Assembly (NCBI GenBank): GCA_029168955.1 | Contig: JAPDOI010000009.1 | Coordinates: forward strand, 1,984,001 to 2,048,000 | Direction of reading: 5' to 3' | DNA: 64,000 bases | DNA from: Aplectana chamaeleonis | Taxonomy: Eukaryota; Nematoda; Chromadorea; Rhabditida; Cosmocercidae | Shown: positions 12,775 to 62,374 of the stretch, piece by piece | How the letters are laid out: every line of letters starts with the position of its first letter | Numbering within the stretch: position 1 is the first letter of the stretch | Made by a program: the position numbers and the translations under genes | Notes under the pieces: model-generated | Seen by the model: the letters and a program-made list of their open reading frames with translations, nothing else | The model's database searches: none | What the model was told of the DNA's origin: nothing

Positions 12775-13205
12775 ATGGCCTCTGAGAGTTTTGGCCGAGA
12801 ATTAGCCGCGAAATAATGCTCGCCGCGAAATAGCCGAGAAATAGTGCTTTCCAGGTAGATATACGGAGCATTCCAGAGGAATGCTTTAGATGTCAGCACC
12901 TCCGTCAGTTCAATTACCCAAGTTTGAGGTACTTGGACCTCGTTCAGTCTCTGGAGGCCCGCCCAACCGCTGAAGGCCCCAGATGGTGACTCGGCGAGCC
13001 GGCGACGGTTGCGTCTTGGTTAATTTTGTTACTCCTGAATATTTCTCGGTTATATCTCGGCTATTTCTCGGCTACTTCTTGTCCGTTCGGTGAGAAGCCG
13101 GGAAATAGCCGCGTAATAGCCGGGAAATAGCCCACCAGGAGCCGCTGCAAAGCCTAGTGGGCTATTTTACGGCTATTTCGCGGCCAAAGCTCTCAGAGGC
13201 AGATG
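12775..13205. mobile_element. GAAATAGCCG palindromic element
   Basis: Inverted ends: CCTCTGAGAGTTTTGGCCG (about 12778) and CGGCCAAAGCTCTCAGAGG (about 13181). Inside are many GAAATAGCCG/CGGCTATTTC units on both sides of an SL1-like sequence at 12907. Confidence 0.65.
12907..13010 (+). ncRNA. SL1-like spliced-leader locus S1
   Basis: Positions 12907-12928 match the nematode SL1 leader at 20 of 22 bases, and the next two bases are GT, the donor position used in SL RNA. Downstream text (GGCCCCAGATGGTG...CTCGGCGAG) is shared with locus S7 at 50839, so conservation extends well past the leader. Lies inside a palindromic repeat. Whether it is transcribed or a relic cannot be told from sequence. Confidence 0.45.
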
Positions 13206-13214
13206 GTGTGTTCC

Positions 13215-13680
13215 ATGCTACACAGTCTCAGACATTGGGAGCAGCGCACAGCTGGCGAAAATTCGCCAGTTGCTCAACAGCTGGGGGACAGCTGGCATTT
13301 AGCTGGCCAATGGCAATCACGAGGCCAACAGTTGGCACACACTCGGCATGCCATTTAATGCTAGCGACGGACGGCTGACGGATATGTGCCAGTTGCCTAA
13401 CAGCTGGGCGATAACTGGCATTTAGCTGGAGATTGGCAATTCCAAGGTCGACAGTTGGCTCATCCTTGGCATCTCAATTAGTGTGATCGGCAGACCGCTG
13501 GCGAATATGTGCCAGCGGCATGAGAGCTGCGTGATAATTGGATTCAGCTGGCAAGGGCAATCAAACCTCAAAATTACCGAGCTCATAAAAACGCAGTTAT
13601 CCACCAATCGGGACTTGGCTGGCGCATAATCGCCCAGTGGTCTTCGCTTGGGCACTGAGTCGTCACATGGCTGGCACTCG
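13215..13680. repeat. CAGCTGG minisatellite
   Basis: About four units of roughly 125 bases containing GCCAGTTGC, AACAGCTGGG, GGCATTTAGCTGG and AGTTGGC. Units have drifted. A related CTGGCGGACCGCTGGC array is at 15100-15345. Confidence 0.6.
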
Positions 13681-13869
13681 AGAGAGTTGTCGACTACTCA
13701 CGTTCTAACATGTTATAGTTTGATCTCTGATTTGACTGATAAGCCGAGCCGGTATATACTCAGAAAAATTAAAAACAAGTTACTTGTAATATAAACTTAT
13801 GTTACATGTAACTTACATTTATATTTCCACTATGGGTGGCCATCACGTGACGCAGACAACACGCGACGC

Positions 13870-13969
13870 AGAGCGCGTGTCTCAGACCACACACTAAGCA
13901 AAAAAAAAGTTGTGCGGGGCCTTCGCTGCTGGTCTGCGGTCAAGTACCTCACACTTGAGTAATTGAACC
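13870..13969 (-). ncRNA. SL1-like spliced-leader locus S2
   Basis: On the minus strand, 13969 down to 13948 matches SL1 at 19 of 22 bases and is followed by GT. The next ~75 bases contain the hairpin region and T-run also seen in S3, S4, S5 and S8. Confidence 0.4.
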
Positions 13970-14517
13970 AACAGCAACACCAGTCGTAAGCAAGACCCCG
14001 CTAAAGCGTCGAACATCCCCCTTGGAAATATCTTCTCGGCCGATTTAGGTTACTTGCGACTTATATTGTGCCATTTAAGTTACATGTAACATATCGGAGG
14101 CGCACTGCACACAGTATCTCAGAAAAATGAAAACAAGTTACTTGTAACATAAAAGGCCGAAAACAAGTTACTTGTAACATATCTGAGTCGATGTAAGTTG
14201 CTTGTGACTTATATCAGGTCATTTAAGTTACATGCAACATATCGGTGGAGTACTGCGTGCGGTGCGCCTCCGATATATTACATGTAACTTAAATGACTTG
14301 AGATAAGTCGCAAGTAACTTACATCGGCTTAGATATGTTACAAGTAACTTGTTTTCGGTTTCTAAGAGGATCCTGCGTGCAGTGCGCCTCCGATATGTTA
14401 CATGTAACTTAAATGGCACAATATGAGTCGCAAGTAACTTAAACTGCCCAAGAAGATATTTCCAAGGTTGATGTACGACGCACTCGCGGGGGCAGACTTA
14501 CGACTGGCGTTGCTGTT

Positions 14518-14617
14518 TGTTTAATTACCCAAGTTTGAGGTACTTGGGGCCACAACAGCAGGGAAGGCCCAGCACAGCATTTTTTTGCGTAGTGTGTGGT
14601 CTGGGACACGCCCTCTG
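14518..14617 (+). ncRNA. SL1-like spliced-leader locus S3
   Basis: Best match in the window to SL1: 14518-14539 agrees at 21 of 22 bases, keeping the canonical TTTAATTACCC, followed by GTAC. CAAGT before and ACTTG across the donor can pair, as the leader does with its 5' splice site in known SL RNAs. About 45 bases on is ACAGCATTTTTTTGCG, a U-run that could serve as an Sm site, though it may be closed in a stem. Upstream ATGTACGACGCACTCGCGGG is shared by S4 and S5 and could be promoter sequence. Confidence 0.5.
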
Positions 14618-15099
14618 CGTCGCGTGTCTATGCGTCGCGTGATGGCCACCCATAAAGAAAATTCAAATGTAAGTTACATGTACTATAAGTGTAACTTACT
14701 TGTAATATAATTTTAAGTTACATGTAATATAAGTGTATGTTACATGTAATATAAATGTAAGTTACTCGAGACATTGAACTAAGTTACATTTATAATACAA
14801 TTAACTTGTTCTGATTTTTCTGAGATCCTCTCAGAATATGAAAACAAGTCATTTGTAACATATCTGAGCCGATGTAAGTTACTTGCGACTCCATTTAAGA
14901 TACATGTAACAGATCGGAGGCGCACCGCACGCAATATCCCGCCGATATGTTGCAAGTAACTTAAATGACCCGAGATAAGTCGCAAGTAACTTACATCGGC
15001 TCAGATATCTTACAAGTAACTTGTTTTCAGCCTTTTATGTTACAAGTAAATTGTTTTCATTTTTCTGAGAAAGTCCCCACGGCGTCAAAAAAAATCTCA

Positions 15100-15345
15100 T
15101 ACGCAAGGATCTGCGGTGAGGAACCCACCTCGATTCATCGGTCGCCAAGAGACTGGCGGACCGCTGGCGAAAGATTGCTTAACAGCGGGCTGCCAGATAA
15201 TAGCCAGTAGACTGCCAGCGGTCGGCCAATGTCCTGGCCGACCGCTGGCAGTGTTTTGGTGGACCGCCGGCTGATGGCTGTCCGACACCGGGAATGGTTT
15301 TGCTCGCCAGGCAAATGCCGCCGGTCCGCCAAACCCAATGTCTGA
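15100..15345. repeat. GACCGCTGGC minisatellite
   Basis: Repeated CTGGCGGACCGCTGGC / GCCAGCGGTCGGCC units in both orientations. Same style as 13215-13680. Confidence 0.5.
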
Positions 15346-15584
15346 GTTACGATAGAACTAGTTCTCGTGAACATTTCAGCTCTGATTCTTCTCCAATGAT
15401 CCATTCATTACTGAATCCATTAGAAACATGAGGATCTCAGTTCACGGTAAGCCATGCCACAGAATCACGTCGAAGACTCAGCACGGCATTCAGTCGACAT
15501 TTTTTCTCAAGAATGACGCCTTCAGTCTGCGACTGCTGCGCCACGAAGGTAAGTTAGAACTGAGAAAAAGTCTCATGTTGTCAA

Positions 15585-16018
15585 CCTTGAGGGCAAGGTT
15601 GACGGTAAAATCGGTTGCTGTGCTATCCTCATGGAAAGGTACATCTGACCATCACAAACGTAAAAATAAGTAAAAAACTGGAGAAAAAACAAGTTCCTGC
15701 TGGGTGTCCTCCCGCCTCCAATTATCGAGATTTCCTTGGAAGCCTGTTTTGCCGTTTTCTATTTTCCTTTTGAAGTAATCGCTGAGCACTTTTAAAGACC
15801 ACTTGCTTCTCCAAGAGCAAAATAAAATACGGATATGCAAGCATTCATCAAAATCTCATTAATTGAGGGGCTGGCCGACACCTGTAATTAGCCGTCCTCG
15901 CTTTTTTGGCGCATTTTTCCTGAAAATTTTCATTTTTTTCACTTAATTTTATTTTTGCAACTACCAGACCTACATTTTCATCAAGAGAACTCAAAAATTG
16001 TCTCTATCGCAAACCCTG
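15585..16018. repeat. Dispersed palindromic repeat, family A
   Basis: Left arm GGTACATCTGACCATCACAAA ... GGGTGTCCTCCCGCCTCCAA; right arm AATTGAGGGGCTGG ... CAGACCTACATTTTCATC ... TCTATCGCAAACCCTG. The same right-arm phrase recurs at 45135. Non-coding. Confidence 0.5.
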
Positions 16019-16025
16019 CCTTTAA

Positions 16026-17700: not shown

Positions 17701-17855
17701 TCGAATGACTCGAAAAAAAACCATGCAGCTAGTCTACTCGTTGGCGATTGTAGATGGTGGTACACATCACACAGCCGTCCAAAAGTTTGTGGACACCCTT
17801 TTTCAAATCAGATTTTCAGACATATCTCGGGTGGGAGCAAACAAATATGGGTGTA

Positions 17856-19738: not shown

Positions 19739-19740
19739 GT

Positions 19741-20547
19741 CTCAGAAAAATGAAAACAAGTTACTTGTAACATATCTGAGCCGATGTAAGTTACTTGCGA
19801 CTTATCTCAGGTCATTTGAGTTACTTGTAACATACCGGCGAGATACTGCGCGCGGGGCACCTCCGATATGTTACCTGTAACTTAAATGGCTTGAGATAAG
19901 TCGCAAGTAACTTACATCGCCACAGAGCATCGCCACATTGTTACAAGTAACTTGTTTTAGATTTCCGAAAGGACACTGAGTGCAATGCGCCTCCGATATG
20001 TTACATGTAACTTTAATGACTTGAGAAAAGTCGCAAGTAACTTACATCAGCTTAGATATGTTACAAGTAAATTATTTTCAATTTCTGGAAAGATACTGCG
20101 TGCAGTGCGCCTCAGATATGTTACATGTAACTTAAATGGCACAAAATAAGTCGCAAGTAACTTAAGTCGGCCAAGAAGATGTTTCCAAGGCTGATGTACG
20201 ACGCACTCGCGGGGTCAGCCAAACGACTGGCGTTCCTGTTGGTTCAATTACCCAAGTTTAAGGTATTTGACGCCATACCAGCAGGGAAGGTCCTGCACAG
20301 CATTTTTTTGTGTAGTGTGTGGTCTGGGACGCGCCCTCTGCGTCGCGTGTCGTCTGCGTCACCTGGTAGCCACCCATAGTGAAAATTCAAATGTAAGTTA
20401 CATGTAACATAAGTGCAACTTACATGTAACATAAATGTAAGTTACATGTAATATAAATGTATGTTACATGTAACATAAATGTAAGTTACTTGAGACATTC
20501 AAGTAAGTTACATTTATATTACAAGTAACTTGTTTTGATTTCTCTGA
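19741..20547. mobile_element. Family B palindrome, copy with S4
   Basis: Starts CTCAGAAAAATGAAAACAAG and ends TTGTTTTGATTTCTCTGAG. The same internal GTTAC units as 13759-15069 surround an SL1-like core. Confidence 0.75.
20241..20340 (+). ncRNA. SL1-like spliced-leader locus S4
   Basis: 20241-20262 matches SL1 at 20 of 22 bases and is followed by GT. The hairpin GCAGGGAAGGTCCTGC and the U-run CATTTTTTTG follow at the same spacing as in S3 and S5. Confidence 0.42.
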
Positions 20548-20713
20548 GGTTGTGTTCTGTTTCCGGCGTCTGCGAAGAGAGCTTCGCCTCAGACCTAGCA
20601 GGTATTGGGTCTTCAGACCTAGTCGTGGACGCACAGGTAGGTTTTCTATTCATCCCGCACCTTTAAAAAAAATCTAATTTTTTCAAGGTTAACAATTCCT
20701 ACTTTTTCTCGAT
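20548..20713. other. Short spacer between two family B copies
   Basis: Contains a small inverted motif (GCGAAGAGAGCTTCGC) and nothing else recognisable. Confidence 0.3.
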
Positions 20714-21302
20714 TCTGAAAAAATGAAAACAAGTTACTTGTAACATAAAAGGACGAAAACAAGTTACTTGTAACATATCTGAGCCGATGCAAGTCACTTG
20801 CGACTTATCTCAGGTCATTTAAGTTACATGTAACATGTCGGCAAGATACTGCGTGGGGTGCGTCTCCGATATGTTACATGTAACTTGAATGGCACAATAT
20901 AAGTCGCAAGTAACTTAAATTGGTCTAGAAGATATTTACCAGGGGGATGTACGACGCACTCGCGGGGTCAGGCTTAAGACTGGCGTTCCTGTTGGTTCAA
21001 TTACCCAAGTTTGAGGTACTTGACCCCCCACCAGCAGGGAAGGCCGTGCACAGCATTTTGTTGCGTAGTGTGTGGTCTGGGACGCGCCCTCTGTGTCGCG
21101 TGTCGTCTGCGTCACGTGATGGCCACCCATAGTGAAAATTCGAATGTAAGTTACATGTAACATAAGTGTAACTTACATGTAATATAAATTTAAGTTACAT
21201 GTAATATAAATGTATGTTACATGTAATATAAGTGTAAGTTACTTGAGACATTCAAGTAAGTTACATTTATAGTACAAGTAACTTGTTTTGAATTTTTCTG
21301 AG
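20714..21302. mobile_element. Family B palindrome, copy with S5
   Basis: Left TCTGAAAAAATGAAAACAAG, right TTTTGAATTTTTCTGAG. Same unit structure as its neighbour, in the same orientation. Confidence 0.75.
20994..21093 (+). ncRNA. SL1-like spliced-leader locus S5
   Basis: 20994-21015 matches SL1 at 21 of 22 bases and is followed by GTAC. Downstream GACCCCCCAC can pair with GTGTGTGGTC, enclosing a GCAGGG/CC.TGC hairpin and a T-rich run. Confidence 0.48.
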
Positions 21303-22128: not shown

Positions 22129-23031
22129 CTCAGACAGTAGGTGCGGACTGACCGCTGGCAATCAAGGCCTCTTCGGGCGGTACGCCGGCAAGTTGCGGGC
22201 GGATCGCTGCTCATCGTAGCCTAGGAGGGCGGATCGCTGCCTCTCGTCGTCTAAGCGGGCGGATCGCCGCGTTTTGGCAGGCGGATAGCGGCACCTGGGA
22301 AAATTTATCACGATAGCGGGCGGATCGCCGGCAAGCTCTGAAGCGGCGTACCGCCCGCAACCTGCCAGCAATCCACCCGCAATGGCATTGATAGCCATAG
22401 ATCCACCCGCTAAGCCATGAGATACAGCAATTCGCCCGCAACCTGCCAGCTATCCGCCCGCCAGAGCTTTGATAGCCAGCGATCCGTCCGCTTAAATTTT
22501 ACACGGTGAAACTTGTCAATCATTGACGAGTTCTTTTCTGTTATCAGTATCATGCTCAGAAAAAAACAAATCGAAGGGTATAAAAGGCGCTCCATCGCAC
22601 TGACTGCTCACTCGGTATTTCGAGGCCGATCCTGAATCGTGACTGAAAGTCACCTCTGAAGGATCACCCAGAGGCCGAAGGATGATTTTTGGCAGCTGAG
22701 GGGGTGGTCCCCACGGCTAGGGAGGGGTGATCCCGCACACGGAGATCGTGGTGGGAAACATCGGAATAACCCATATGAGGCATTGAGGGCGGATCGCTGG
22801 GTACTGCCGGGCGGATCGCTGGCTACTGGCGGGTGGATCGCTGGCTACTGCCGGGTGGATCGCTGGCTACTGCCGGGCGGATCGCTCGCTACTGGCGGGC
22901 GGATCGCTGGCTACTGGCGGGCGGATCGCTGGCTACTAACGGGCGGATAGCTGGCTACTGGCGGGCAGATGGCGGTGGGATGTCGATCCGCTCGCCAAAA
23001 GCCAGCGATCCGCCCGCACCTACTGTCTGAG
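22129..23031. mobile_element. GCGGATCGCTGG element, full copy
   Basis: About 900 bp with near-perfect inverted ends CTCAGACAGTAGGTGCGG and CCGCACCTACTGTCTGAG. The right third is a tandem of about ten 20-22-base units of GGCGGGCGGATCGCTGGCTA (22790-22980). Collinear with 9080-9859. Confidence 0.8.
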
Positions 23032-27841: not shown

Positions 27842-30800
27842 GTATGTAGACACCTGCTTTTAGTGGGAATCCGACAATATTCAGGACTGCTGAAAAATTG
27901 GCTAACAAGGGAACCACTGTAAGTCACAGTAACCATTCCAATTGAAATGTACTTCTCTAGAACCATTTTCTGACGAAAAGTTCGAATACGCCCATCGCAG
28001 CTGCCTAGACCCACTCTGAAAGAAGTTATGAGCGTTTTTAAAGCTTCGCGGCAGGGTTAGGGTACCCCACTCATTTATAATTTCATGTATGTTTTTGATT
28101 TTTTTGCCGGATTTTGCTGAAAACATGTATGTAGGGGCAATCTGGGTGCTGAACACGAATCTGGGGTTCGATTGTCGAAATTTCAAGGTTTACTGTAGGT
28201 TACGGTGTAGGTTAGAACATACCATTACTGTAGGTTAGAACATACCATTTAGGAAGCAAAACCTTTCTTAGTAATTCGAGAATCGTGAAATGGACATCGA
28301 ATTCGTATTCAGCACGCCAAAAAACTCCCACATAGACACTTTGAGACAAATCTGAGACTTTGACCAAACTACCGTATACTATACTTGTTCCAGATGGAAT
28401 TTATTTCGGATATCCGACTTTTCGACTATAGTTGGATATTGCACATTTTCGAATATTCGACTTTTCGACTGTAGTCGGATATCGCCCTTTTTCGAATATT
28501 CGACTTTTCGACTGTAGTCGGATATCGCACTTTTTCGAATAACCGACTTGTCGAATGAAAAAGTCGACTTTTTTATCCGACTGAAACAGTCGGATACTCA
28601 TCCGATTATTCGATTCGGAACAAGTATACCGTATACCCACCGTAATCTACCGCAAGCAGTCAAAAATCGATAAACCGACGTCAGATTCGTGTTAAGCACT
28701 CCAAATAACCCCAGAAGAACGATTTGAGCCACATCTGTCGTCACATTCCGGAAATCGTCAAAAGTCGATTTTGCCGTCAATTTTTGTTTGCCGGTGGGAA
28801 GCTTTGATCAAATTTAGTCGAAAACTTTGAAAAAGCGACGAATGAACCTCAGATTCGCAATCAGCACCCCAAAAAACCCCCAGAGCGAATTTTCAGTCAA
28901 ATCTGGAAAATTTTTCCAAGACGCTTCGAGAGCCCTCTAATTGGTATAAATATGTATGTATACCCTATCCCAAATGAGATGGCAATTGTAGAGCGTAAAG
29001 AAGCAGCGCGCCGCCCTCTGCGTCTCTGACATTTTCGTATTTTTGGACGTTTTTTAACTTTCTCACTACATTTTCTAACATACTCTATTGCTTTTTTCAT
29101 TCTTTTCTCTCAAAATGCTCGTAATATTGACTTTCGATACATATTTTGTTCTTCACGTGGCAGGGAAAGTTTTTCAGGATATGGATAACAGTTCGGAGCT
29201 CACAGAGTCGTCTAACCCGTCGATTTCCCCGTAAACTTGATAGAACCGAGCTGTTTTTACTTGTCTGAGGCCAATATTTCCCTTTATTGTTCGGTTGCAG
29301 TCTCCACAGTCTCAGACAACTTTAACATCGATCCAGGTGCTTCAGGCCGCTGATGATGTCAGAGAAGCAGATGGCGGCACGCTGCTTCTTTGGACTTTAG
29401 GCTTGCCATCTCGTTTGGGACAGGGTATAGGGGTCGTTTATACTTCCACCGCCGAGCAGCGCGGCGAAGCGCAATCCTGCAATATCGATAGTACCGCACC
29501 GCGTGATCAATATTAGGGGTCGTTTATACTCCCGCCGCCGAGGGGCGCGGCACCGTTCATTTCTGTAATATTGATGACGCGGCGCGGTACGATTGATATC
29601 ATGGGATTGCACTTCGCCGCGCCGCTCGGCGGCGGAAGTATAAACGACGCCTTACTGAAATGCACTGTGCCGCGCCGCGCGGCGGCAGGAATATAAACGA
29701 CCCCATAGACGCCCAACCGAAAATCCGTACAAGTCCAAAACGCTGTTAGTCTGCGCAAAGTTTGGTAAATGTTCCTTCACCCAAACTTTGCCTAGGGGGA
29801 TTGTTTTTGGCGCTCAACACGATTATGAGGTCCGTTTCCGGATTTCTCGGAGACTAAGGCACTTTTTGGAAGGTACAATAGGTACAAAAATGAGAAAAAA
29901 TGCCTATAACTTCTTTCAGAGTTGGTCTAGGCAGCAGCGACGGGCATATTCGGACTTACCGTCCGAAAATGGTTCCAGAAAAGTACATTTCATTTGAAAT
30001 GGTTGCTATGACTTATAGTGAATCCTTTGTAAGACACTAGCTAGGTGCGTTCATGATTGTCCAGAGATTTGAAAATGGCATCTCATAATCTGAATCTCAT
30101 ATTTTTTATGCTCATTCAGAATCACAATATCATACTTTTCTGCTCGTTTAGGATGTTCTACTTGCTCTTTCCAGTTGTTTTTCCAACATGCGGCTGTAAA
30201 GTCCATTCGCTTAGTTATTGTCCCTATTAAAAACCTTACCACTTCCTTCTGCAAGTGCCTGTGAAGATCTGAGGATGCGAATTTCAAAAACAGATTTTTG
30301 GCCGTACCCTGGCTTTTAAACAATGGCCTTTCCTACTCCTTGCTTCTGTTGAAAATGTCCTTTCTCCTTTGGCAGGCCTCAGTCATTTTCCCAGAGAGTT
30401 TTCTGGCTGATTCATCACCACACATTCAAAACAAGATCCCCAGATCATCGAAAATCCTGTGAATGGTTAGGAGCAGATCTTTCTCGGGGATCGACCACAC
30501 CCAATAATCTATATATGGCTAAAATTAGCACTAGTTACTCTGAGAAAATTTGCCGCGTAAGCGCCGGGAAAGTATCGCGACCCTCGACTGTGCCGCGATA
30601 GTTCCGCGATAGTATCGCAGCGGCTCCGTGATCGGACGATTTTGTTGCCGTGTCTTGAACATCGACATCCCTCCAATAGTACCGCAGCGGCTCCGCGTTA
30701 GAACCGCGCCAGCTCCGCGAGGATGCAGCAGTGAACCCACGTGGAGTACGATGTACTATCCTGTGTGGTAAAACGAAATATCCGCCGGTTTAATTACCCA

Positions 30801-33800
30801 TGTGTGAGGTATATTCCGTATTTCCTTGGGCGCAAAAGCGGCGGTAACCTCTGTCCCTCTCAGACAGACGACGTAACGAGCGCAGGTGCGTATTTATGTT
30901 CCTAGACCCCCCCAGTTGTATTATCATTTTTAGGTAACTTCATATCAGATACCCTCCCGGAGCCGCTGCGGCACTATCGCGGAGCCAAAGCGGCACTGCC
31001 GCACCACCGCTGCGGCTCCGCGATAGCTCCGCCGCGGCCCCGCGATTGTGCCGCTTCGGTGCCTGTAGGCCCCTAAGCGGCACTACCGCGGAGCCGAGCC
31101 GGTAATTTCTCCCAGAGTACGACCACGCTTGGGCTGCTACAGAATCAAGGAAATTAAGGGTAAGGCTTGGTCAAATTTTTTTCTGATTTTACCAAATTTG
31201 GGTTAGATCGGTCGACATGGACTAGGTGACCTAATCTGAAGTCCGGATAAAATTCTTTGACATAAAAAAATTGCCTGTGGGGTAAGCTTGTCTTTCCGCC
31301 CAATCGACAAAATCTTCCACATAACTCGGTGCAGACAAGTCTTCAGCAGCTACGAAATTAGATTCGAATCAAGGAGAGACGCAATTCCGATTTTCGATGG
31401 TTTTTGGCCTCCCGAGTATTGAATAAAGCCTGAAAATGAGGGAAACATCGTGAATATCCGCGAGATTAGAATTTTTTGAATTTCTTCTTGCCAAATCCCT
31501 AAGAGGTTATTTCGGGCGCTAAATCCGAAATCGAGGTCCGTCATCACTTTTCAGAAAGCCAGTTGACTATATTTACATCAAAATTATTTAACAAAACAAG
31601 ATAAGCACAAGTTTTTTTGGTAGGCACAGTGACCAGAGAGGGTTAAAAATTTCGCTGGACGAATTTCCTATTTCGAATAGTTTTTGACGTTCCGATTCCC
31701 GAAATTGAGAAGGTCGTTTCAGTTTAGGTAATTCAGAGAAATTCCGCTCAACCCTAATTCGAATACGTCTTTGAAAGTACCTAAACTGCTACGAATTTCG
31801 TTGGAAGCGGGGGTTTCGACCGGACGTGAATCCCTAGTATGTCTTTATTCCTGTGCATGTCGAATTATACTCGTGAATCATTTTATTAAAGGCAGTGTTC
31901 ACGATGAGAATCGTTTTTCTGCTTTTCCGCCCATCTCAAGGACGGTCCCATGCTGATTCCAATGATGTTTTCGGAATCGTACAAGACCTTCCAGGAACGG
32001 AGTTATGGTCCCTCAAAAATTGAGCTAGGGAAGCATGGTGGACGAGTTGTCCGAGGCTTGTAACTTCCGTCTTTTGCAGCCGATCTGTGCGATCTGACCT
32101 GAGTAAAGAGAGAAGTTGAGAATGAAGAGAAGAACGGGGCTATTGATCGGAAACTATAGCTCATCTCACAATCTCGAGCACTCATTTATTCATGTCGGTG
32201 GGCGTGGAAAGTGAATCTGGGGTGTGAAGAGCTGACGGGTGTCCAATTTTGGGGCCGTAGGGGACCGTTCCGAGCTCATTTTTCTTAGTTGTTTTTGACG
32301 TTAGGGTTGCGCTAGGCTCCGCAGCTGCCGATCTCCACCAAAAAATCAGACATGGTTTCTATCGTGGACACTGCCTTCAGGCCTAACATTTCAATGGTCC
32401 ACATATAATCTTAACAAGTGACGCTTTCTCCATGAAACAGAAGGATCCGGTTCCAGGCGCCAACAGACGCAATTTATTCGCTGTCGCGAACTTGTTAAAA
32501 ACTCATATAACGTCTAATCGCATGAGATTCCAACACCAGTTAAGTGACTGGGTCACCGTGCCGGCTGAAAACCACAAAAACACGCCATTGACACCTTTCA
32601 GCTGGGACTGCGCATATGAAATCCAGGTTCTTATGACGATAATATTGGAAATTGAATTTCTGGGAAACATAAAGCCAGGACTTACTCAGAACACCTCGAG
32701 GTTCCTACAAGGCCATAAAAAACAAATCTGAATTGTTTCCTTCCACTCTTCTTTATTAGCAAGTAGACTTTGTAACTAAAAATGCAGATGGGTAAGGAAT
32801 GGGTAGTTTACCAATGTGTTAACTGAAAGATTTTGTTGAACGTCAGTCTTTAGACTTACAGAAAATTCTGTTCTGACTGACCATTATTTCACCTTCAGGA
32901 GAACTCTCGATGATGAAACCATGTCAACGTCAAGGAGGCGAAACAGAACTGTCATCAGGCGGCGAAGAATACACAGGAGAAAACTCGATGTGAGCAACAC
33001 TTCTTCAGCCCATATTCCTTCTCCTTGTACACTGCGTATTATGAAGATAGGACACCCCCTAAATTTGCCGGTCTCGTATTTGTTTAGCAGGATAGATCAT
33101 TTCCATCAATACTACTGTGATCAGGATGTTTACACAAGGTGCTGATTTGATCACAAAACGCTTGGCTTCGGGCGAGATTGAACCAGCATACTCCCTTTCC
33201 GGGGAAGCGCCTTATCGCACTGCACCACCGAAGCCCCAGCGCCGCTCTCACTCAACTGCTCGGTAAATCTTCACCGAAGCGATCATCTTTTTACCCGCAT
33301 AACGGGATGAAACAGGAATACCGCCAGAGACTATCTAACAGTCGTAGACCTGTCAAGATGATGCCCTACTTAAAGGCAGTGTTCACGATGATTCTCGTTT
33401 CCAAGTTTTCCACTCAAAACAATGCTTCGGCAACCAAGTGTTACCAAAATCACGAAGAAACGGCGAGAAACGCACTATTTCGTCTTATTTCAGTGACATT
33501 CCTTTATGGCCTGGACTAGTTGTCTGGTTGGATGAACATGTTCACGGTGGTTATCACCGGCAAAAAATGGGACTAGTCGAAAATGGAAGAATATTTTGGG
33601 CAAAATAGTATTGGTTCGGGCCCGAAGGAAAGAACGGAGCAACACAGAATGGAGAATTGCAAAAGACGGGTCCACAAACGATTTCATTGTCGCAACGAAC
33701 AGTTCCATTGATACTTAAGAGGCGGGCTGATACTTAAGGAATTCGTGCCCTTCTGGTGCGTTTTTCTCGGTTTCTTCGTCATTTCAGTTCTACTTGGGGG

Positions 33801-36800: not shown

Positions 36801-39800
36801 AGGCTGTTTAACTTGGTCGATAGTATACCGAATCGAGTATATGGTGCAATTAGGGAGTGAGGAGAGCCGATCGATCATCAGATTTGTGATCACACAATTT
36901 TATAGAGCCAGAATTCCGATTTAGCCCAGGGGTGTCCTATATTTTTGATACACGATTTAAAACAAAAATGTAATCTAAAGAAGTGCACAAATTTTCTATC
37001 TAACCCAAAAGAGCTATACGGAGGTTATTTTACATCCTGATCACAGTAGTAGTGATGCAAAAGATCTATCCTGCTCAACAAACGCGAGACCTACAAATTC
37101 CGTGGGTGTCCTATCTTTATGATACGCAGTGTATTAACTTCACGTTTTTTTTGTGGAAAGCATATCATACTATCTTAAGGGTTGAAAAGTAAAGACTCCA
37201 AAAAGAATTTTCTTATATTCGGAGATTCTCAAAAATTTTTACTTTCTGATTTTGGACTTGTAAAACTCCACCGGAATGCAATTCCATTTCAACAGTGAAA
37301 TTTATATTCAGCCTCACGGACATTCGGAATTCCATGCTCGACTACATGGCGTCATGAATCGTGAAGTGACACCGCTCGAACCAGCAAGCGTCATCAAAAA
37401 ACAGTGTGGTAAGGTATCACAAGGAAGCCGAATTGAGTAAAAAACTTAGGTGCCAGGCAGGAATCGAACCTGCATCACATCGCTTCCCGGGCGAAAGTGT
37501 TACTATTACACTACCGACACCGCTCTGCGTCCCTCAGCTAATTGGCACATGAAATATAGTTGTACACGAACGAAATTTTCGAAAAATTTTGCGAAAGATA
37601 AAGATTTAAGATAAAGATTTAAGAAGAAAGATAGAGATAAAGATATAAAGACTTTTCGAAATTTTTCTCGTTCGTTTTCGTTCGTTCGAAATTTCGCCGA
37701 ACAAATTTTTTTTTCAAATTTCGTTCGTTCGAAATTTTTTTCGAACGAAAATTTTTAATTTTCGTTTGTTCAAAATCCGATTTTTCGAATTTTTTTCGAA
37801 ATTCGTTCGTTCGGAATTTTTACGAACGGAATTTCTTCAATTTTCGTTCGAACAATTTTCAAAAAAAAAAGTTCGAAATTTTTGACAAATTTCGAAAAAA
37901 TGTCGAAATTTTCAACGAGTTCAGAAAAAATACGAAATTCCAAAAAAAATCGAAATTTCGATTAGTTTCGAATTTCGTTCGTTCGACCTCCGAAATTTCG
38001 AAAGTTTTTCGAAATTCGTTCGTTCGAAATCTTTTCGAACGGAATTTTTTCATTTTTCGTTCGTTCGAAATCGTTTCGAACGAAATTTTTTCATTTTTCG
38101 TTCGTTCGACATTTTTTCGAAATTGTACAACTATAACATGAACTGTGTGGGCACAACTGTGATCATACCCGTTGTCGGCAATCACCCGACAACGGGTATA
38201 ATCCTGCAAGCGCAAATCGGCATTTAATCCAATTCAGCTGAGACTTTTGGGCAGGTTGATTTTTCATGTTTTTGGAACATTTTATGCCTTTAATGGCATG
38301 GTATATGATCAGAGGATAGCACAAGGTGGTGTGGTAAGAAGAAAATCAGCAGTCTAAAATAGACGCCTAATATCTTTACAACGAAAACCATCATACAAGA
38401 GGAGTGTTTATGGCGGTGAACGAATCTGCAAAAAAGACTTGTATTGTTTAGTATCCTTTGGGCCTTCATAGTAAAATTGCGCAGTATTCCGCTTCGAGCT
38501 GCAGGTTTCAAGAAGTTACAAGCTTAAAGAAGCCTTTTTGTAATTGTTGTACCTTCCAAAACAAGCATTCATATTTCGAAGATCCGGAAATAGACCTCTT
38601 AATCGTGTTTAGCGCCCAAGATAGCCCCCTTCCCTGGACAAAGTTTGGCTGACAAGGGAACCACAATAAGTCATAGCGACCATTTCAAATGAAATGTACT
38701 TTTCTAGAACCATTTTCGGACGAACAGTCCGAATATGCCCATCGCAGCTGCCTAGACCCACTCTGAAAGAAGTTATAAGCATTTTTTCTCTGATTTTCAT
38801 ACCTGTTGTACCCTCCAAAAAGCGCATTATTTTACGAAATTCCGGAAACGGACCTCATAATCGTGTTCAGCGCCCAAAACTACCCCACTAAGCAAAGTTA
38901 GGTTGAAGGAACATTTTCCAAACTTTGCGCAGACTAACAGCGTTTTGGACTTGTACGGATTTTTGGTTGGGCGTTTATTTATACCAATTAGAGGGCTCTC
39001 GAAGCGTTTTAGAAAAATATTCCAGATTTGACTTGAAATTTGCTCTGGGGGGGGGGGGGGTAATTTGAGGTGCTGATCACGAATCTGAGGTTCACTTATC
39101 GATTCACCGATGTTTTCGACTGCATTCGTTCACAGCTTTCCATCGGGGGAGAATTTGATGGCAAATCGCGACTTTTGACGATTTTCGGAGTGCTACTGTA
39201 GATTATGCTCAAATCATTTCTCTGAAGGAAATCTGGAGTGCTGAACACGAATCTGACGTTAGTTTATCGATTTTTGACAGCTTACGGTAGATTACGGTGG
39301 GTATACGGTAATTTGGTCAAAGTCTCAGATTTGTCTCAAAGTTTCTATGTGGAGGTTACATATTTGGGGTGCTGAATACGAATTCGATGTCCATTTGTCG
39401 ATTATCGAAATATTGAGGTAGGTTTTGCCTCCTAATTGGCATGCTACCTACCGTGACCTAGAGAAAACCTTAAAATTTCGGCAGGCAAACCCTAGATTCG
39501 TATTCAGCACCCCAGATTACCCCTACATACATGTTTTTAGAAAAATCCGGGGAACAATTCAAAAAACACCCTAAAAATTTCATGAGGGGTACCCTTACCT
39601 TGCCGCGAAGCTTTAAAAACTCTCATAACTTTTTTCAGAGTGGGTCTAGGCAGCTGCGATGGACATTTTCGGACTTTCCGTCCGAAAATGGTTCTAAAAA
39701 GTACATTTCATTAGGAATGGTCACTATGACTTATTCTGGCTCCCTTGTGAGAGGACATTCTTTGAACTTTATACAGAGTGATAGCGTTTTGGACTTGTAC

Positions 39801-48800: not shown

Positions 48801-51800
48801 ATTAGGCATACTTCCTCGAAACTGTCATCAGTGAACTTATCTAGACTTTCGAGGGCGTAAAGGCAAGAGGTAGTTACCGAATGTTCCCCTTGGCCAGACC
48901 TATTTCTTTGAAAAACGAACTTTCTTATATGTATGTATATACGGCGTACAGGTCTGCATATCAATAATTTTTTTGTTTTTCTTCCAGTACGTCGGGCTGG
49001 TGGACCGAGTCGCCTATACTCCGCTAGCGGATGCTCGAGTAGTGTTCACAAATGGCATCAACAAAAAGGGCGACCGTGTGGTCAGAAACAAATCAACAGG
49101 TGAGTGCATCCATACGACTAATATCTCAGACGCTCGCCGTTGTCCACGGGACACGAATGAGATGTCACCTCACGCAATGCTCCCTGTAAACATCCGAAAA
49201 GGGCAGGGATCGCCACTCGAGAACTGCCCGTCGCCCCACTCCTTAGTGCCGTAGACAACCTATCCGCGGAAACGCTTTTGCTGTAGACATCTCATCGGAG
49301 GACGGTCTCCATCTCCAATCCCGCGTTCACATCCTATCAACATTCCGTAGACCTGATACCATCCTAGTGAAGCATCAGCCGCCTTATGACGTCCCCCCTA
49401 AAACGGCGGTATGTCTTCTTCCGAAACTCGATAATGAGGCTCGATTTTCTTTATTTCGGTTCTAATCTAACCGGAACAGAGAAATTGTACCCTCCCAATC
49501 AAACTTTTTAGAGAAAAACTAACACTGGCGTGGATCCTAATGAGACTTTTCGTTCCTCTTTGGAGGTTGGCGCAAACTCGGTGCACCTAAGTAATAGCAT
49601 AAGGCACCGAGTTAGTGCCAACCTTCAATAGTAAACGCAAAGTCTCATTAGGATCGATTTGGGTTGCTGATCACGATTCTGAGGTTTATTTGTGGTTTTT
49701 CCTGAGTTTTCGACTAAATTTGTTCAAAGCTTCCCACCGGCAGAAAAATTTGACGGCAAAATCGACTTTCGACGATTTCTGGATTACGGTGGGTATACGT
49801 TATAGTTGTACACGAACGAAATTTTCGAAAGATTTATCGAAATTTTTTCCATTAGTTCGGGATTTCGTCGAACGATTTTTTTCAGATTTCGTTCGTTCGA
49901 AATTTTTTCGAACGAAAATTTTTCAATTTTCGTTCGTTCGACATTTTTTTTTCGAAATTGTACAGCTATAGTATACGGTAGTTCGGTAGATGTCACAGAT
50001 TTGTCTCAAAGTTTCTATGTGGGGGTTATGGCGGTGTGTCGGCTGCGTCGCGTGCCGACGTGCTGCTACGATAACGCTGGATTACCTTGCAGCACGCGCC
50101 TCTGCGATTAAATTTTGCAACACGTGCTCCTACGGTAAAATTTTGCAGCACGTGCTGCTGTTTGGAGCACGTGTCCCTGCGATACACCCTTTCAATAGGA
50201 GTGGTCACTTGAGTTGGATACATATTCGACACGCATTGAGTGCGGCAAATTTTTGAACCCGCAAGGTACTCCATCTCGCTGATCCCGGACTACGCTAAAA
50301 TGGCTTCCTTTGTTAACCAGGAGAGGTGATATCGGCTAACTACGCTTATTTTTTTTTAATCTACATTTTTTCCACTCGCTACATTTACCTTTCCTCGAGT
50401 AGTTTTCTCAGCTGATTTTGGTGCTAAAAACAACCCAGGCGTAGATTCAGCCGCAAAAACTACTTTTTTTTTCCTTTGTTGTCCACACTAGCCGGATCTT
50501 CTGATGCCTTGCTCGCATCGAAAGCCATTCGATGGGACGACGTGGAAAGAGTCCGGAGTCAGTGTGTCGACGATTGGCAGTCTCAGGCAATCGACACATT
50601 CAATGCGTGTCGAATATGCATTCAACTCAGAGAAAAGGTGGTACAGAGCACAGTCAGGGAGCGTGCTGCAACCGGAGCATATGCTCCTATTGTGCTTGAA
50701 AATACAGCACGTGCGCCAACAAATAAAGCGTTCAATGCGTGCATGATACACAATCAACTCGTTGGCGAAATGATTTTCTAAAAAAGGAAAGCATACGACG
50801 CACCCTTGAGGCCGCACTCAAATGATGGCAGCGTCGCCGGTTCAATTACCCAAGTTTGCGGTACATGGCTCGCCCGGGCGCTTGTGACCTTGTCCAAACA
50901 CTGGCGGCCCCAGATGGTGCTCGGCGAGCTGGCAGAGTCGCATGTCGGTGTGCCGGCCGCGTCGCGTGTCGATGTGCTGCTATGACCACCTTGCAGCACG
51001 TGCTCCCGCAATCAAATTTTTCAGCACGTGCTCCTGCGGTGAAATTTTGCAGCACGTGCCCCTACGATAGAACCTTTCGATGGGTGTGGTCACTCGAGTT
51101 GAATGCATATTCGACACGCATTGAATGAGGCGGTTTTCTGAGGTACTGAATGATACCTGAGAAGCCACTATAAGATTTCTCCAAGAAAATAAACCCACAA
51201 AATCACCCATGTTTTATAAAGTTCCTTGAGATTTCCCCTAATGTCTTGAGCTTTGAGCCTAAGAATGTCGCCTAATGTGCGTGCTATGCTAACATCCAGC
51301 CTTGCTCTTATTTCAGTAAGTTTTTCTCAAGATTCCTGTCTTGACAGATGACTATGGCTAACCTTCAGAAAAATTTTAACGGCCGGTATTGTGATCGCTA
51401 ACACTTTTCCAAGAACGACTCCTAATAGACCTCTTTCAGAACCTCATATGATACATCTTTGATCAGTATGCGACAAAGTTCTGCTCCTAAATGAACTATC
51501 AATCCCTTAAAACACGAAAATCACCAAGTGAATATCGAAAACGACGAAAAAAAAAGAAAGAGTTCAGGTAGAGACAAAAAGTAGCAGATTGCCAATATTG
51601 ACAAATAATGTTCTTTTTCTATGTACATTCGCGTTATACTCCTGCAACATAGTTCATTATATCGGCATTATGATCGAAAATATCGTATTAGAAGATGAAA
51701 TTGATAGCCCAAGTTAGAGCAAAGATATCTGGAAAAAAAGCCGATGTTAATAGATTTATGCCCGCTACTGTAAGTATAAATATGTGGGGAAAGTCATCTG

Positions 51801-52885: not shown

Positions 52886-54745
52886 CAGGGCTGTGCGAAA
52901 ATCTTTTTCAAGATTTTCGGAAACGGAAACGGAAGAAAAATGGTCAAAAATCGCCGGAAACGGAAACGGAAGAGACCGAGGAAATTTGGGGTTTGTTTCT
53001 TTTTTTTTCGCTGCTGCCCCCAGCTCTCAATCAATAACCAATGACTTCAGTTAACAAACTAATAATTATTCAAAATAAAGTCACTACGAGGCATTCAACC
53101 ATTTCGAAGTCTCTCTTCCGAAAATACCAAAAAGGAATCTCTAAAAATACTCATTATATGTTGCCGCCGTTCAAATAGTGTAAATGGGGAAATTCCCTTA
53201 TGATCTGCCTCAAACGAGCCTCTCCGTGGTCACCTCAACCTGTCTCCGCCGAGACTCCTTTCTGTATGCGCAAAAAAAGTTTCTCAATTTGTGTTGGTGT
53301 CGTGGCGGTAAACAAGCGAAGAAGTCGAATCTAGAAGAGAAGCTTTACGAAATCACTGAATCTGACAAGGAAACCACAATATGTCATAGTGACCATTCCA
53401 AATGAAATGTACTTTCCTGGAACCATTTTTGGACGAAAAGTCCGTATATGCCCATCGCAGCTGCCTAGACCCACTCTGAAAAAAAATTATGAGCGTTTTT
53501 CTGTGATTTTCGTACCTATTGTACCCTCCAAAAAGCGCATTATTTTTACGCAAATCCGGAAACGGACCTCATAATCGTGCTCAGCGCCCAAAACTACCCC
53601 ACTAAGCGAAGTTTGGGTGAAGGAACACTTTCCAAACTTTGCGCAGACTAACAGCGTTTGGACTTGTACGGATTTTCGGTTGGGCGTTCATTTATACCAA
53701 TCAGAGGGCTCTCAAAGCGTTTTAGAAAAATATTCCAGATTTGACTTGAAATTCGCTCTGGAGGGTTATTTGGGTGCTGATCACGAATCTGAGGTTCATT
53801 TATCGATTTTGGGAAGTTTTCGACTGTATTCGTTCACAGATTCCTATCGGGGAAGAATTTGATGGCAAATCGCGACTTTTGACGATTTCCGGAGTGCTAC
53901 TGTAGATTATGCTCAAATAATTTCTCTGGAGGTTATTTGGAGTGCTGAACACGAATCTGACGTCAGTTTATCGATTTTTGACAGCTTACGGTAGATTACG
54001 GTGGGTATACGGTAGTTTGGTCGAAGTCTCAGATTTGTCTCAAAGTTTCTATGTGGGGGTTATTTGGGGTTCTAAATACGAATTCGATGTCCATTTGTCG
54101 ATTATTGGAATATTGAGGTAGGTTTTGCCCTCTAAATGGCATGTTACCTACAGTAAACCTCAAAACTTTTAGAAGCGAACCCCAGATTCGTGTTCAGCAC
54201 CCCAGATTACCTCTACGTACATGTTTTTAGCAAAATCCGGAGAACAATTTAAAAACACCCTAAAAATTTCATGGGGGGTACCCTTACCTTGCCGCGAGGC
54301 TTTAATAAACGCTCATAAGTTTTTTCAGAGTGGGTCTAGGCAGCTGCGATAGGCATATTCGGACTTTCCGTCCAAAAATGGTTCTAGAAAAGTATATTTC
54401 ATTCGGAATGGTCACTATGACTTATTGTGGTTCCCTTGTGAGAGAAAAAGCTGTATGTTTAATAAAATAATCCTCGAAAGGCGTTTAGATTCCTGCCACG
54501 CCCATTTCGTGTTACCATTTTATAGGATTCAAATCTCAGACCCCCAAACTTCGGGAATGATCTCAGCCAAGCGGAGATATTTGCTTGGGTTCAAGAGGTC
54601 GGATGTGATTTTCAGCGTCTCATGAAACCTTCAAAAATCCTTGCCTAGACCCGCTATCATAGATCGCATTGCACTAATTTATTCCGTTTCCGGGCCCAAA
54701 AACTCGGAAACGGAATCGGAAACGGAACAGTTCCGCACAGCCCTG
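52886..54745. mobile_element. hAT-like element with 8-bp duplication
   Basis: Ends CAGGGCTGTGCG and CGCACAGCCCTG, flanked by GTCTAATA on both sides (52878-85, 54746-53). GGAAACGGAAACGGAAG repeats lie next to the ends. The 8-bp duplication and CAGGG terminus are hAT hallmarks. Over half its length is the nested element D4; no transposase. Confidence 0.85.
53366..54438. mobile_element. Tc4/Tc5-like element D4 nested in hAT element
   Basis: 1073 bp. CAAGGAAACCACAATATGTC ... TGTGGTTCCCTTG, TGA duplication (53363-65, 54439-41), target CTGAG. Arms and interior collinear with D3. Confidence 0.85.
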
Positions 54746-54753
54746 GTCTAATA

Positions 54754-58831: not shown

Positions 58832-60180
58832 TGAGTTCTATTCAAATGATATTGTATCTATGCTTATGATGTATGAACGAATACAGATTTCTTAATTTGT
58901 GTTTTCGTTTATTATGTATGTGTTTATGCGGTCATGTTTGCCTCTCACATGTATTTTTTGGGTTAGTAGTCAAATTTGTAGCATGCCGCATTCCCCATTT
59001 TACAACTTCTTTTTTGACATAGTTGTTACGAAGAAGGACCTCAAACGACATCGATAAAGCATGTCAGGTGAGCTCGCCAGGATGATAACGGCTCAACGAC
59101 CAACTGCATAAAAAGCTATTCTCATTTCGATTCACAGAGAGTTCACACCTTCCCGGGACCTTTTGTGGTAAACTGCTGTAAAAATCATGAGCCACCCGTT
59201 TACGCCCTAATTCAAATCATAAGGTTGGTCTATGGTATTAGCGAACCGCACACTGATCTCTGATACGGAACCCGTGTTGCGACCAGCGATTGTTGTTTAT
59301 TCACTCATTCCTCCACATTACACTTGCCCTCCGACAATTTGCAGAATAATAGAAACATGATTGTGATCTTCCGTCTGGGGTTCATCAGGTGATATTCCGC
59401 TTGCAGAAATGCAGGAAACACCCTCGTCAAAAATGAGAAGTTGTAATATTACACTACCAGCCTTAGCAGATCTAGAGGAGGAAATGACGATGTGTTTGTT
59501 AACATATTTGTCATCATCTTGGCCGAGTTATACCGCTAAATTTGAAACTTGATGATATTCAAATTTTGGAACGGAATCGGTTTTTCTGTCCCCGCTTTCT
59601 GGTTAAAACCACTCAATCTTAGACCAGCCCCCGCTGCAAAACTATTTGAAACAACACTAACGTTTCATCACTGTGAGGTCACCACATAAGACCGTACTCA
59701 GACATCGTTATGAGCACACACGCACCTGCACTCCTGCCGACTTGTTTCCTTTGTTGAACTGTTGTCCATGACAAATTCCCTATTTTTAGCGATTCGGCAG
59801 TACACATAGTAAAGATAAGCGAAATCTGGATTGGAATGCAATTTATTAGCCATTTCTCGCACTTTCAAAATCAAACATATTTACCATTTCTTGCACATTC
59901 ATGCCCGATTCTATTGCCACTTCTTGTACTTTCATACCCAAATATAGGTGCCCACCTTCGAAAGGATACAGTGACTTGCGAAGGAAGCCATTTCAGCGTA
60001 GTCGCCCATTGCCGGTAGTAGTAAAAACTGAGTGGCTCGTTTCAGAACCCAATTCTAAAAAAGCTCAAGGACGAGAATCGTAGGGTTGATGTTGTGCCAT
60101 GGTTTCTACCCTAACCTACCAGAGTCGTTCGAAAACCAAAAGCAGGCCACGATTCCGTGATTCACGCCTCGATTCACCTA
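58832..60180. other. Intergenic DNA, nothing recognised
   Basis: No gene, RNA or repeat border seen. Short CAATTTATTAGCCATTTCT..CACTTTCA phrases repeat weakly at 59840-59940. Confidence 0.3.
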
Positions 60181-60459
60181 CTGTGCTTATCTGGGCCAAA
60201 TTCCGGTCCGCAATCGCGTCTCGACACGCTTTGCGGCCGCACGCGCTCGAGTCACTCGGGTTTCCAGCTCCAAAGCCGACTCGATGTGGCTTTTTTATAC
60301 AGCTTTCTCCACTTTTTCTTAGTTTCCAGTTTTCAAAACCCACCTAGACTCAGCAGATCGGCGGCTGCGACGCTGGAAGCCCTTCTGACTCGGGAGCGTG
60401 CGGCCGCAAAGCGTGTCGAGACGCAATTGCGGACCGGAATTTGGCCCAGATAAGCACAG
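60181..60459. mobile_element. TA-flanked MITE family P, copy 3
   Basis: 279 bp between TA dinucleotides. CTGTGCTTATCTGGGCC ... GGCCCAGATAAGCACAG. The same base change is present in both arms compared with copies 1 and 2. Confidence 0.85.
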
Positions 60460-60683
60460 TATCTCGGCCAAGTTTGGGTGGAAGAAAAAAATTTTGGCCC
60501 CAGAACGGTCAAAAATTAGAACAGGACGTACCTTAACTAGGGACTGTTTTGCCCGCACCGCAACGATTTGGAAAACCATGTGAAGACTCCTGCATGCCTC
60601 CGAGGATCATGGTTTTATAAAAACCCTGAACAAGGGTAAGGTAAGCCCAAGTTAGGACTGCGATGTTACAAGGATAGGGGCTC

Positions 60684-61123
60684 TTCACACACTGAGGGAG
60701 GAGTTGTCTCGTTTTTGTAGTTTGAAACGTCACGTTACTCTATTCAAACATGGTGGTTCCGAGTGGAATTAGAGCCGCAAGAGCTCAGAACCTGGTACCG
60801 GGCGACCAATCGCTGCTCGTCCGGGTCGCCCGAAATGGTGAATCGGGTCGCGAGAAATTCTGTACATTGTACATTAATCGTCCGTAGCGTACATTCACAC
60901 GCAAATGCGCTGCACCGGGAAGGCAATTTTCGTCATCCGTGTGGCTGGCAACAATCGAAGGGTTAGCGGGTCGCCCGCAAGGGTTAGGGGTTCATCCGAA
61001 ACGGGATCTGGCCCCGAATTTAAGTGTCCGGGTGGCCCGAAATGCAGTTTTTTTGCGCCGAGAAGGCCGGAACGAAGTTCTGTGAGGCGAAACAACTCCT
61101 CCCTCGTTGTGTAGAGAGCCCCC
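60684..61123. mobile_element. Palindromic MITE (GGGAGGAGTTG)
   Basis: GGGGCTCTTCACACACTGAGGGAGGAGTTG mirrors CAACTCCTCCCTCGTTGTGTAGAGAGCCCC with small differences. The middle has GGGTCGCCCG motifs. Confidence 0.65.
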
Positions 61124-61677
61124 ATTTCGATGTTAGAGTTCCAAGATGCAGCAACGCATTCCGACGCTAATCAAAGTGTACGGTAGAGCAAGATACTCGG
61201 TACTTGAATCCGTTTCGTCTTAGGTAGAAGCGCTGTGGCCGCAGGGTGCTCGCGATTATGGCTGACAAGGGAAGTTATGCATTTAAGTCATATTAATCAT
61301 TCCTAATGAAATGTATTTCCCTAGAACCATTTTCGGACGTAGAGTCCGATTATGCCTATCGCAGCTAAAAGTCACCCTGAGAAAAGTTATAGGTGTTTTT
61401 TTCTCTGATTTTCTTGCCTATTGCAACCTCCAAGAAGCGCATTAATTTTACGAAAATCCTGAAACGGACCTCATAATCGTGTTGAGCACCCAAAACAACT
61501 CCCTGGGCAAAGTTTGGGTGTAAGTACATTTTCCGAACTTTCTGCAGACTGATAGCGTTCTGGACTTGTACGGATTTCCGCTTCAGCAATCAACTTTATC
61601 AATTACGGGGTACAGGAAGCGTTGGAGAAAAATATTCCAGATTTGACTTGAAATTCCCCCAGAGGGGTAGTTTTCGG

Positions 61678-62374
61678 AAAAATCAAAACAAGTTTCTTGT
61701 AATATAAATGTAACTTACTTGAATGTCTCAGGTAACTTACATTTATAATACATATAATACATTTATTGCATGTAAAATAATTTTATATTACATGTAAGCT
61801 ACACTTATGCTACATGTAACTTACATTTAAATTTTCCCTGTGAGTGGTCATCACGTGACGCAGACGACACGCCACGCAGAGAGCGCGTCCCAGACCACAC
61901 ACCACGCAAAACCGCTGCGCAGGGTCTTCCCTGCTGGTGTGGGGTCAAATACCTCAAACTTGGGTAATTGAACCAACGGCAACGTCAGTCGTAAGCCTGA
62001 CCCCGCGAGTGCGTCGTACGCCCCCCTTGAAAATATCTTCTCGGCTGAAATAAGTTCCTTGCGACTTATACTGTGCCATTTAAGTTACATGTATCATATC
62101 GGAGACGCACAGCACGCAGTATCCTCTCAGAAATTTGAAACAAGTTGCTTGTAACATATCTAAGCTGATGTAAGTTACTAGCGACTTATCTCAAGTCAAC
62201 CAAGTAACATGCAACATATCGAACGAAAACCGCGTGAAATGCTCCTCCGATAAGTTACATGCAAGTTAAATGGCACAACAAAAGTCGCAAGTAACTTACA
62301 TCGGCTTAGATATGTTACAAGAAACTTGTTTTGGGGCTTTTATGTTACAAGTATCTTGTTTTCATTTTTCTGAG
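61678..62374. mobile_element. Family B palindrome nested in D5
   Basis: Left GAAAAATCAAAACAAG, right ATTTTTCTGAG. Same GTTAC units as 13759-15069. It splits D-family text that is continuous in D4 near 53765. Confidence 0.75.
61875..61974 (-). ncRNA. SL1-like spliced-leader locus S8
   Basis: Minus strand 61974-61953 matches SL1 at 21 of 22 bases, followed by GT. Downstream GCAGGGAAGACCCTGC hairpin and CACACCACAC-type pairing text as in S4 and S5. Confidence 0.45.

Follow-up and report, generated by a model that had tools for sequence, protein, structure and literature searches.

The spliced leader (SL) SL1 is largely invariant across nematodes, and in Caenorhabditis elegans its genes form an array with 5S ribosomal RNA (rRNA), according to the available portion of PMC1657053; the accessible part of PMC7986045 gives Pristionchus pacificus 187 to at least 619 SL1 genes in several variants. 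Among nematode mobile elements, the Tm1 Mutator/foldback elements of Meloidogyne, as described in the available text of PMC3169594, have composite inverted-repeat ends and include a group resembling miniature inverted-repeat transposable elements (MITEs) and a histone-hairpin group. Here we analyse a 64,000-nucleotide (nt) stretch of the genome of the nematode Aplectana chamaeleonis (GCA_029168955.1, contig JAPDOI010000009.1, positions 1,984,001–2,048,000, forward strand; hereafter the window), in which an original prediction had placed eight SL1-like leaders inside palindromic repeats. Very probably the eight loci are copies, now in decay, from four families of palindromic DNA transposons that are non-autonomous and bear an integral module made of the front part of an SL1 RNA gene: a promoter motif near −45, the 22-nt leader and its GT donor; in one of the families, A, the RNA body is SL-like too.

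SL1-type leaders inside palindromic elements

A search for the nematode SL1 leader across the window, at a threshold of at least 16 of 22 identical bases, yielded exactly eight sites, at the eight predicted positions and with the predicted 19–21 matching bases: S1 (12907–12928, + strand, AGTTCAATTACCCAAGTTTGAG; 20 of 22), S2 (13948–13969, −; 19), S3 (14518–14539, +; 21, with T at position 5), S4 (20241–20262, +; 20), S5 (20994–21015, +; 21), S6 (30787–30808, +; 20), S7 (50839–50860, +; 20) and S8 (61953–61974, −; 21). S5 and S8 have the exact form with C at position 5 (C5), and GT lies directly 3′ of the leader in all eight, as had been claimed. For a chance test we scored 25 bases, the leader plus GTA with T or C accepted at position 5; the eight sites score 23–25, anywhere else in the window reaches at most 17, and the top score in simulated first-order single strands (n = 6) was 18. 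The eight sites are far above chance, and exact leader plus GT matches number four in the window, against about 0.16 expected from the genome total.

The elements around the leaders, located by self-comparison and by searches for their ends, are compact palindromes of 419–808 base pairs (bp) that start with CTCAG or CTCTG and close with the inverse. They comprise a family B element of 419 bp with CTCTGAGAG ends (S1; 12780–13198, +), five family A copies, namely a partial copy abutting S3 (S2; 13759–14117, −), 707 bp (S3; 14118–14824, +), 808 bp (S4; 19741–20548, +), 589 bp with a degenerate left end (S5; 20714–21302, +) and 702 bp with a left end degenerate to TTCGG (S8; 61673–62374, −), a family C element of 580 bp (S6; 30538–31117, +) and a family D element of 561 bp (S7; 50582–51142, +). 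Six of the eight are flanked by matching 2-bp duplications that vary in sequence (S1 GC, S3 AT, S4 GT, S6 TA, S7 GT, S8 TT). Counting two leader-less elements, 8 of the 11 element rows drawn up for the window have such a duplication; none matches at S5, at the S2/S3 composite or at an outer element at 13227–15346. The S8 element interrupts another repeat, and by-eye comparison identified other copies of that repeat, near 53700–53830 and 39000–39110, as the empty site. Terminal inverted repeats, short length, target duplication and, for S8 only, an empty site are thus all present, as in MITEs.

Elements with CTC(A/T)G-type ends make up 11.7% of the window, yet they hold all eight leader sites; the palindromic, transposon-like setting claimed for every locus is that of defined elements. 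A plain inverted-repeat scan (arms less than 1.5 kb apart, 28% of the window) covered six of the eight sites and missed S6 and S8, the elements of which were placed by their ends.

Instead of the two subfamilies first proposed (S2/S3/S4/S5/S8 and S1/S7), four families can be told apart, since the arms of S1 (B), S6 (C) and S7 (D) differ from those of family A. The grouping of S1 with S7 holds as far as 76% identity over 116 nt around the leader, but no arm-to-arm match appears among the matches listed. Mean identity between families is up to 0.89 over leader and donor and 0.34–0.50 over the other parts. A family A profile nevertheless matches S1 (E 4.3e-9), S7 (1.3e-7) and S6 (7e-4); downstream of the leader, pairwise tests give p 0.001 for S1–S7 and p 0.002 for a 13-nt piece common to A and S7, and the remaining family pairs are not significant.

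Upstream of the leader lies a motif resembling a proximal sequence element (PSE), TACGACGCAC, exact in S3 (14474–14483), S4 (20197–20206), S5 (20950–20959), S7 (50794–50803; all +) and S8, matched at 8 of 10 bases in S6 (TACGATGTAC, 30747–30756, +) and at 7 of 10 in S1 (TACGGAGCAT, 12862–12871, +) and S2. It stands at −44 in family A, at −45 in D and, in its 7-of-10 form, in B, and at −40 in C. The upstream sequence said to be shared by S3–S5 is therefore real and exact, but it is not theirs alone, being found also in S7 and S8, more weakly in S6, S1 and S2, and in host SL1 genes. In pairwise upstream tests, A–S1 (p 0.003) and A–S7 (p 0.016) stand out.

Two related leader-less elements with the same type of ends lie at 9080–9859 (duplication TC) and 22129–23031 (duplication CA); the leader's place in the middle is taken by a TATA-like stretch (GGGTATAAAA), which may be promoter cargo of another kind. 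The outer palindromic element at 13227–15346 has CTCAGACATTGGG ends and differing 2-bp flanks (GT and TT), and the S2/S3 composite seems to be nested inside it.

Genome-wide copies and host SL1 genes

The assembly comprises 1,036,593,504 bases in 2,087 contigs. The leader plus GT pattern GTTYAATTACCCAAGTTTGAGGT has 2,607 matches in it, and the reversed control has none; the leader patterns found no match in bacterial/archaeal or viral contig collections. Among the 100 matches listed, 96 have C at leader position 5. We classified 74 of these 100 (all 45 on contig C1, 28 of 32 on C2, and 1 of 23 on C3, chosen for its T at position 5, T5). Their bodies belong to family A at 45 sites (five of them within one tandem run), B at 22 and C at 5, so that 72 of the 74 match families A–C and two are unassigned. 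The tandem run (L009, C1:5167500-5171500) contains exact C5 leaders, five in all, whose family A bodies are altered; most are spaced about 370 bp apart.

Script output gave end pairs at 44 of the 74 sites, 35 with a duplication; on reading the rows, 4 of the 44 proved to be internal palindromes (L004, L027, L033 and L048), leaving 40 sites with true ends, 32 of them with a 2-bp duplication. In 14 family A loci of the sample the leader lies 399–401 bp from the left end. This fixed position, together with the empty site of S8, bears out the proposal that SL1-type gene modules are MITE cargo dispersed by the elements. The upstream motif (at least 7 of 10 bases within −50 to −38) is present at 66 of the 74 sites, as compared with 4.35% of random places; at sites selected for T5 it occurs at 1 of 31, and that one (L090) is by its sequence itself a family A copy.

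The genome also contains ordinary SL1 genes. A genome search with the Rfam SL1 model, in which 50 of 256,011 candidates were scored, gave at least three matches, the canonical host genes L099–L101, at 45.6–50 bits, below the cut-off of 75. Each of the three has a T5 leader, AAATTTTG, a 3′ hairpin and a 5S rRNA gene on the same strand that starts 389 nt past the leader start, and each has the upstream motif at −45, at 8 or 10 of 10 bases (exact in L100 and L101). From this position in host SL1 genes we infer that the motif may be bound by the small nuclear RNA-activating protein complex (SNAPc). The host SL1 body pattern has 14 genome copies at up to two mismatches, 12 of them exact; the non-canonical ones have other letters in the first leader half, a 5S gene is close to most of the 14 and was not seen nearby for three or four, and the exact C5 leader is found in none of the 14. 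The usual clustering of SL1 genes with 5S is therefore present here, apart from the elements. At contig C29 one half of a family D element stands on either side of a canonical SL1 gene, and host and element are accordingly not cleanly separate.

These data bear on the alternative that the eight loci are ordinary host SL1 genes dispersed in a repeat-rich genome, for which the hundreds of SL1 RNA genes in Pristionchus pacificus (in the available text of PMC7986045) would be a precedent. We consider it disfavoured and very unlikely: the host SL1 bodies have a different sequence, lie mostly near 5S and amount to only 14 copies, and the small part of the window occupied by the elements contains every leader site.

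Decay of the copies and possible uses of the leader

The 95-nt family A consensus, folded with its Sm-like stretch held unpaired, is predicted to form a stem I across the donor, a stem II (GCAGGG/CCCTGC) and a stem III. C5 is placed opposite G29 in stem I, where T5 would make a wobble pair. With T-runs of 4–9 allowed, an Sm-like site is found 37–40 nt after the leader in all five family A window copies (for example ATTTTTTTG at 14579–14587, +, 39 nt past the S3 leader, and ATTTTG at 21055–21060, +, in S5), at or just short of the 40–55 nt offset window taken from PMC7986045. S1 has such a site at offset 94 only, and S6 and S7 have none.

Little in the RNA body looks maintained. Among 40 family A copies, 76.9% of the stem II cells are paired, two-sided compensatory pair changes number zero, and paired cells amount to 90.4% as against 90.7% in shuffles; stem I is uninformative about constraint because the copies were selected by their leader. 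Across the five family A window copies the leader is the least diverged of eight segments (0.091 versus 0.120–0.196, from 220 cells only). In family A copies met incidentally in fetched flanks, leader decay is 0.089 against 0.072–0.181 in the surroundings, in rows that include recombinant leaders and cross-family matches. Both estimates of within-family constraint come from small samples. Individual copies look little or not constrained, and decay like that of the rest of the element, with no compensatory changes, means that most of them are probably dead, as the original prediction had allowed; neutral decay equal to that of the surrounding repeat, which it had named as evidence against itself, is largely what individual copies display. 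Maintenance of the individual copies is not supported: compensatory pairs are lacking, and in S1, S6 and S7 an Sm-like site is missing where one would normally lie.

Several results weigh against reading the loci as transposons with an SL1 module. No end pair was found at 30 of the 74 sampled genome sites, and the script's choice of end pairs leaned towards those with a duplication; moreover, these sites were picked by an exact leader, so leader conservation among them is uninformative. A Pfam test of 8 of the 36 listed window open reading frames (ORFs) found no transposase domain, and no autonomous relative was found. Protein searches with two ORFs gave no match. The four other upstream family pairs are not significant (p 0.19–0.53), and the averaged cross-family profile is without a clear motif peak (0.45–0.48). 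Longer family A lengths fold otherwise (z −2.29 at 107 nt), as do most single copies. At the gathering score Rfam reports no SL1 in the window; the best window match of the covariance-model scan, S8 at 61866–61974, is full-length and scores 24.6 bits against the cut-off of 75.

What calls for explanation is why families whose bodies and arms have diverged still have leader, donor and motif in common. We propose that the capture of an SL1 gene by an ancestral element, either in C5 form or with C5 acquired later, was followed by radiation; in the master elements motif, leader and donor would have persisted through the turnover of arms and RNA bodies, and their copies would then decay. Masters might retain the module either as the element's promoter or first exon or through leaders that expressed copies continue to supply. 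Gene conversion by host SL1 genes was considered as a cause of the kept leader and is disfavoured, since element leaders are mostly C5 and canonical host genes are T5.

The first of these possibilities, that the module is the elements' own promoter plus a first exon (the leader with a cis donor), so that the transposase messenger RNA (mRNA) of an autonomous relative would start with an SL1 mimic, is one we regard as possible though on balance doubtful. It would accommodate the finding that the four families share mostly leader and donor, with the upstream motif, and not the RNA body, and that the similar-ended elements at 9080–9859 and 22129–23031 have their TATA-like stretch in the leader's place. 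In work on Ascaris, the nematode leader itself reportedly acts as a promoter element. The eight tested window ORFs without a transposase speak against it, as do the Sm-like site and the possible stem III of family A.

The second possibility, that SL RNAs made from some of the element-borne genes supply mRNAs with the C5 leader GGTTCAATTACCCAAGTTTGAG, enlarging and changing the host leader set, is likewise tentative and in our estimate rather improbable. The relevant evidence comes from loci in which a leader stands at the head of other sequence. At L069–L098, T5 leaders followed by GTA(A/G/T) head several locus families with common downstream and unrelated upstream DNA; in one family L084 has an endonuclease domain, L080 has a DUF1759 domain, and five further ORFs of such loci have no Pfam match. 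They are apparent retrocopies of trans-spliced transcripts, which would record the leaders carried by past transcripts. Relics of this kind seem common in the genome, and one may ask whether the eight window loci are themselves relics of reverse-transcribed, trans-spliced mRNAs. This is extremely improbable, because the elements share the upstream motif and a flanking core and GT follows the leader in all eight.

The C5 leader followed by GTATC has 10 genome matches when no GG start is required. Four of them (L127 and L131; L128 and L133) fit retrocopy-like families with unrelated upstream DNA, and L132, which matches such a family weakly, is a probable fifth; of the other five, four belong to element families A, B or C, and L130 has a promoter like that of the elements. 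With C allowed at any T, leader plus GTATC has 144 matches: 133 plain T5, 8 C5 with the GG start (4 retrocopy-like, without L132, and 4 element-like) and 3 with T→C elsewhere, of which one is a family A element (L134) and two were not inspected. T→C is thus more frequent at position 5 than at the seven remaining T positions. The occurrence of C5 at four, probably five, retrocopy-like loci is suggestive of use of the C5 leader, all the more as the exact form is absent from the 14 host SL1 bodies. On the other side, L127 and L131 share a 9-bp insertion and possibly have one source, so that retrocopies may inherit C5 and the independent events may number two or three, and the element copies decay without compensatory pairs.

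5S-containing units and comparison with known systems

A leader junction, GGGTCATTAACCCAAGTTTGAG, occurs 18 times in the genome, 7 of them on C29, C57 and C1353, contigs with host SL1 bodies. Of the other 11 loci we fetched 8 (L116–L123); each consists of a 183-nt tail (88.5–100% alike), the second leader half and an A (4) or B (4) body. The junction is the same in all eight, a constancy that is partly built in because the junction was itself the search string, and L119 and L123 look like one event. A 5S sequence lies upstream in six of the eight, whose own 5′ ends were not seen; L121 is cut within 5S and L122 after it. Altogether, 5S-containing units are found in leaders of A, B and D elements (L116–L123, L099 and L103–L108). 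On C29 a family D element encloses one SL1–5S unit, and on C57 a family A element, split at its leader, encloses three. The right arm of the C57 element (L103, the right half of the family A element) gives way to a sequence reminiscent of a mariner end. In the arrays of C57, C1353 and C1520 (L103–L105, L108 and L111), internal SL1 units show GGGTCATTAACCCAAGTTTGAG where an SL1 leader would stand.

That a single junction recurs across many element bodies while the 5′ ends differ suggests target-primed retroposition, which the differing 5′ ends of L121 and L122 would favour at those two loci. At C29 and C57, recombination with a circular SL1–5S unit fits equally well. No reverse transcriptase was linked to the 5S-containing units, and no search aimed at one was made. 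It is conceivable, although we think it unlikely, that DNA transposons took over part of the supply and address system of trans-splicing, with element-borne SL1 genes producing a second leader, C5, for splicing onto germline transcripts, and offering element leaders as landing sites where 5S-containing units rebuild SL1–5S arrays, with MITEs seeding the arrays.

Literature searches on SL RNA combined with transposable elements, with MITEs or inverted repeats and with NeSL, judged by title and start of abstract, returned no case of SL RNA genes as transposon cargo, and a literature text search found no exact C5 leader strings. What the Aplectana elements add is SL1 gene front ends as mobile cargo, at a scale of 2,607 leader plus GT matches against 14 host SL1 bodies and mostly with one leader base changed. 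Transposon-borne leaders would give leader sets a concrete means of expansion or change, are a candidate explanation where a species has SL1 genes in the hundreds, and would provide leader-inserting units with sites. As a built-in tag, the C5/T5 difference (GGTTCAATT versus GGTTTAATT) would distinguish transposon-borne from host leaders in 5′-end complementary DNA.

Compared with the nematode SL1–5S gene (Rfam RF00198), the element copies have the same leader, donor and motif position and, in family A, a possible three-stem fold and an Sm-like site; they differ in being spread by transposition, mostly C5, with other RNA bodies and scores far below the Rfam cut-off. The multicopy SL1 RNA genes of P. 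pacificus are a further parallel, although the word stem 'transpos' is absent from the main text of PMC7986045. SL-exon-specific non-long-terminal-repeat retrotransposons of the NeSL clade (NeSL-1), as covered in the accessible part of PMC4640811, insert within the SL leader, as the 5S-containing units do here; in A. chamaeleonis the leaders themselves lie within MITEs, 5S rRNA is part of the units, and no reverse transcriptase, none having been sought, is linked to them. Tm1 is likewise a set of nematode elements in which composite inverted-repeat ends go with an RNA-processing motif as cargo, and in the available text of PMC3169594 SL1 figures solely as a predicted splice acceptor. The 9-bp target duplication of the Mutator/Tm1 superfamily does not occur at the elements of the window. 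Tm1 combines these duplications with a histone hairpin, and the elements described here combine 2-bp duplications with an SL1 gene module.

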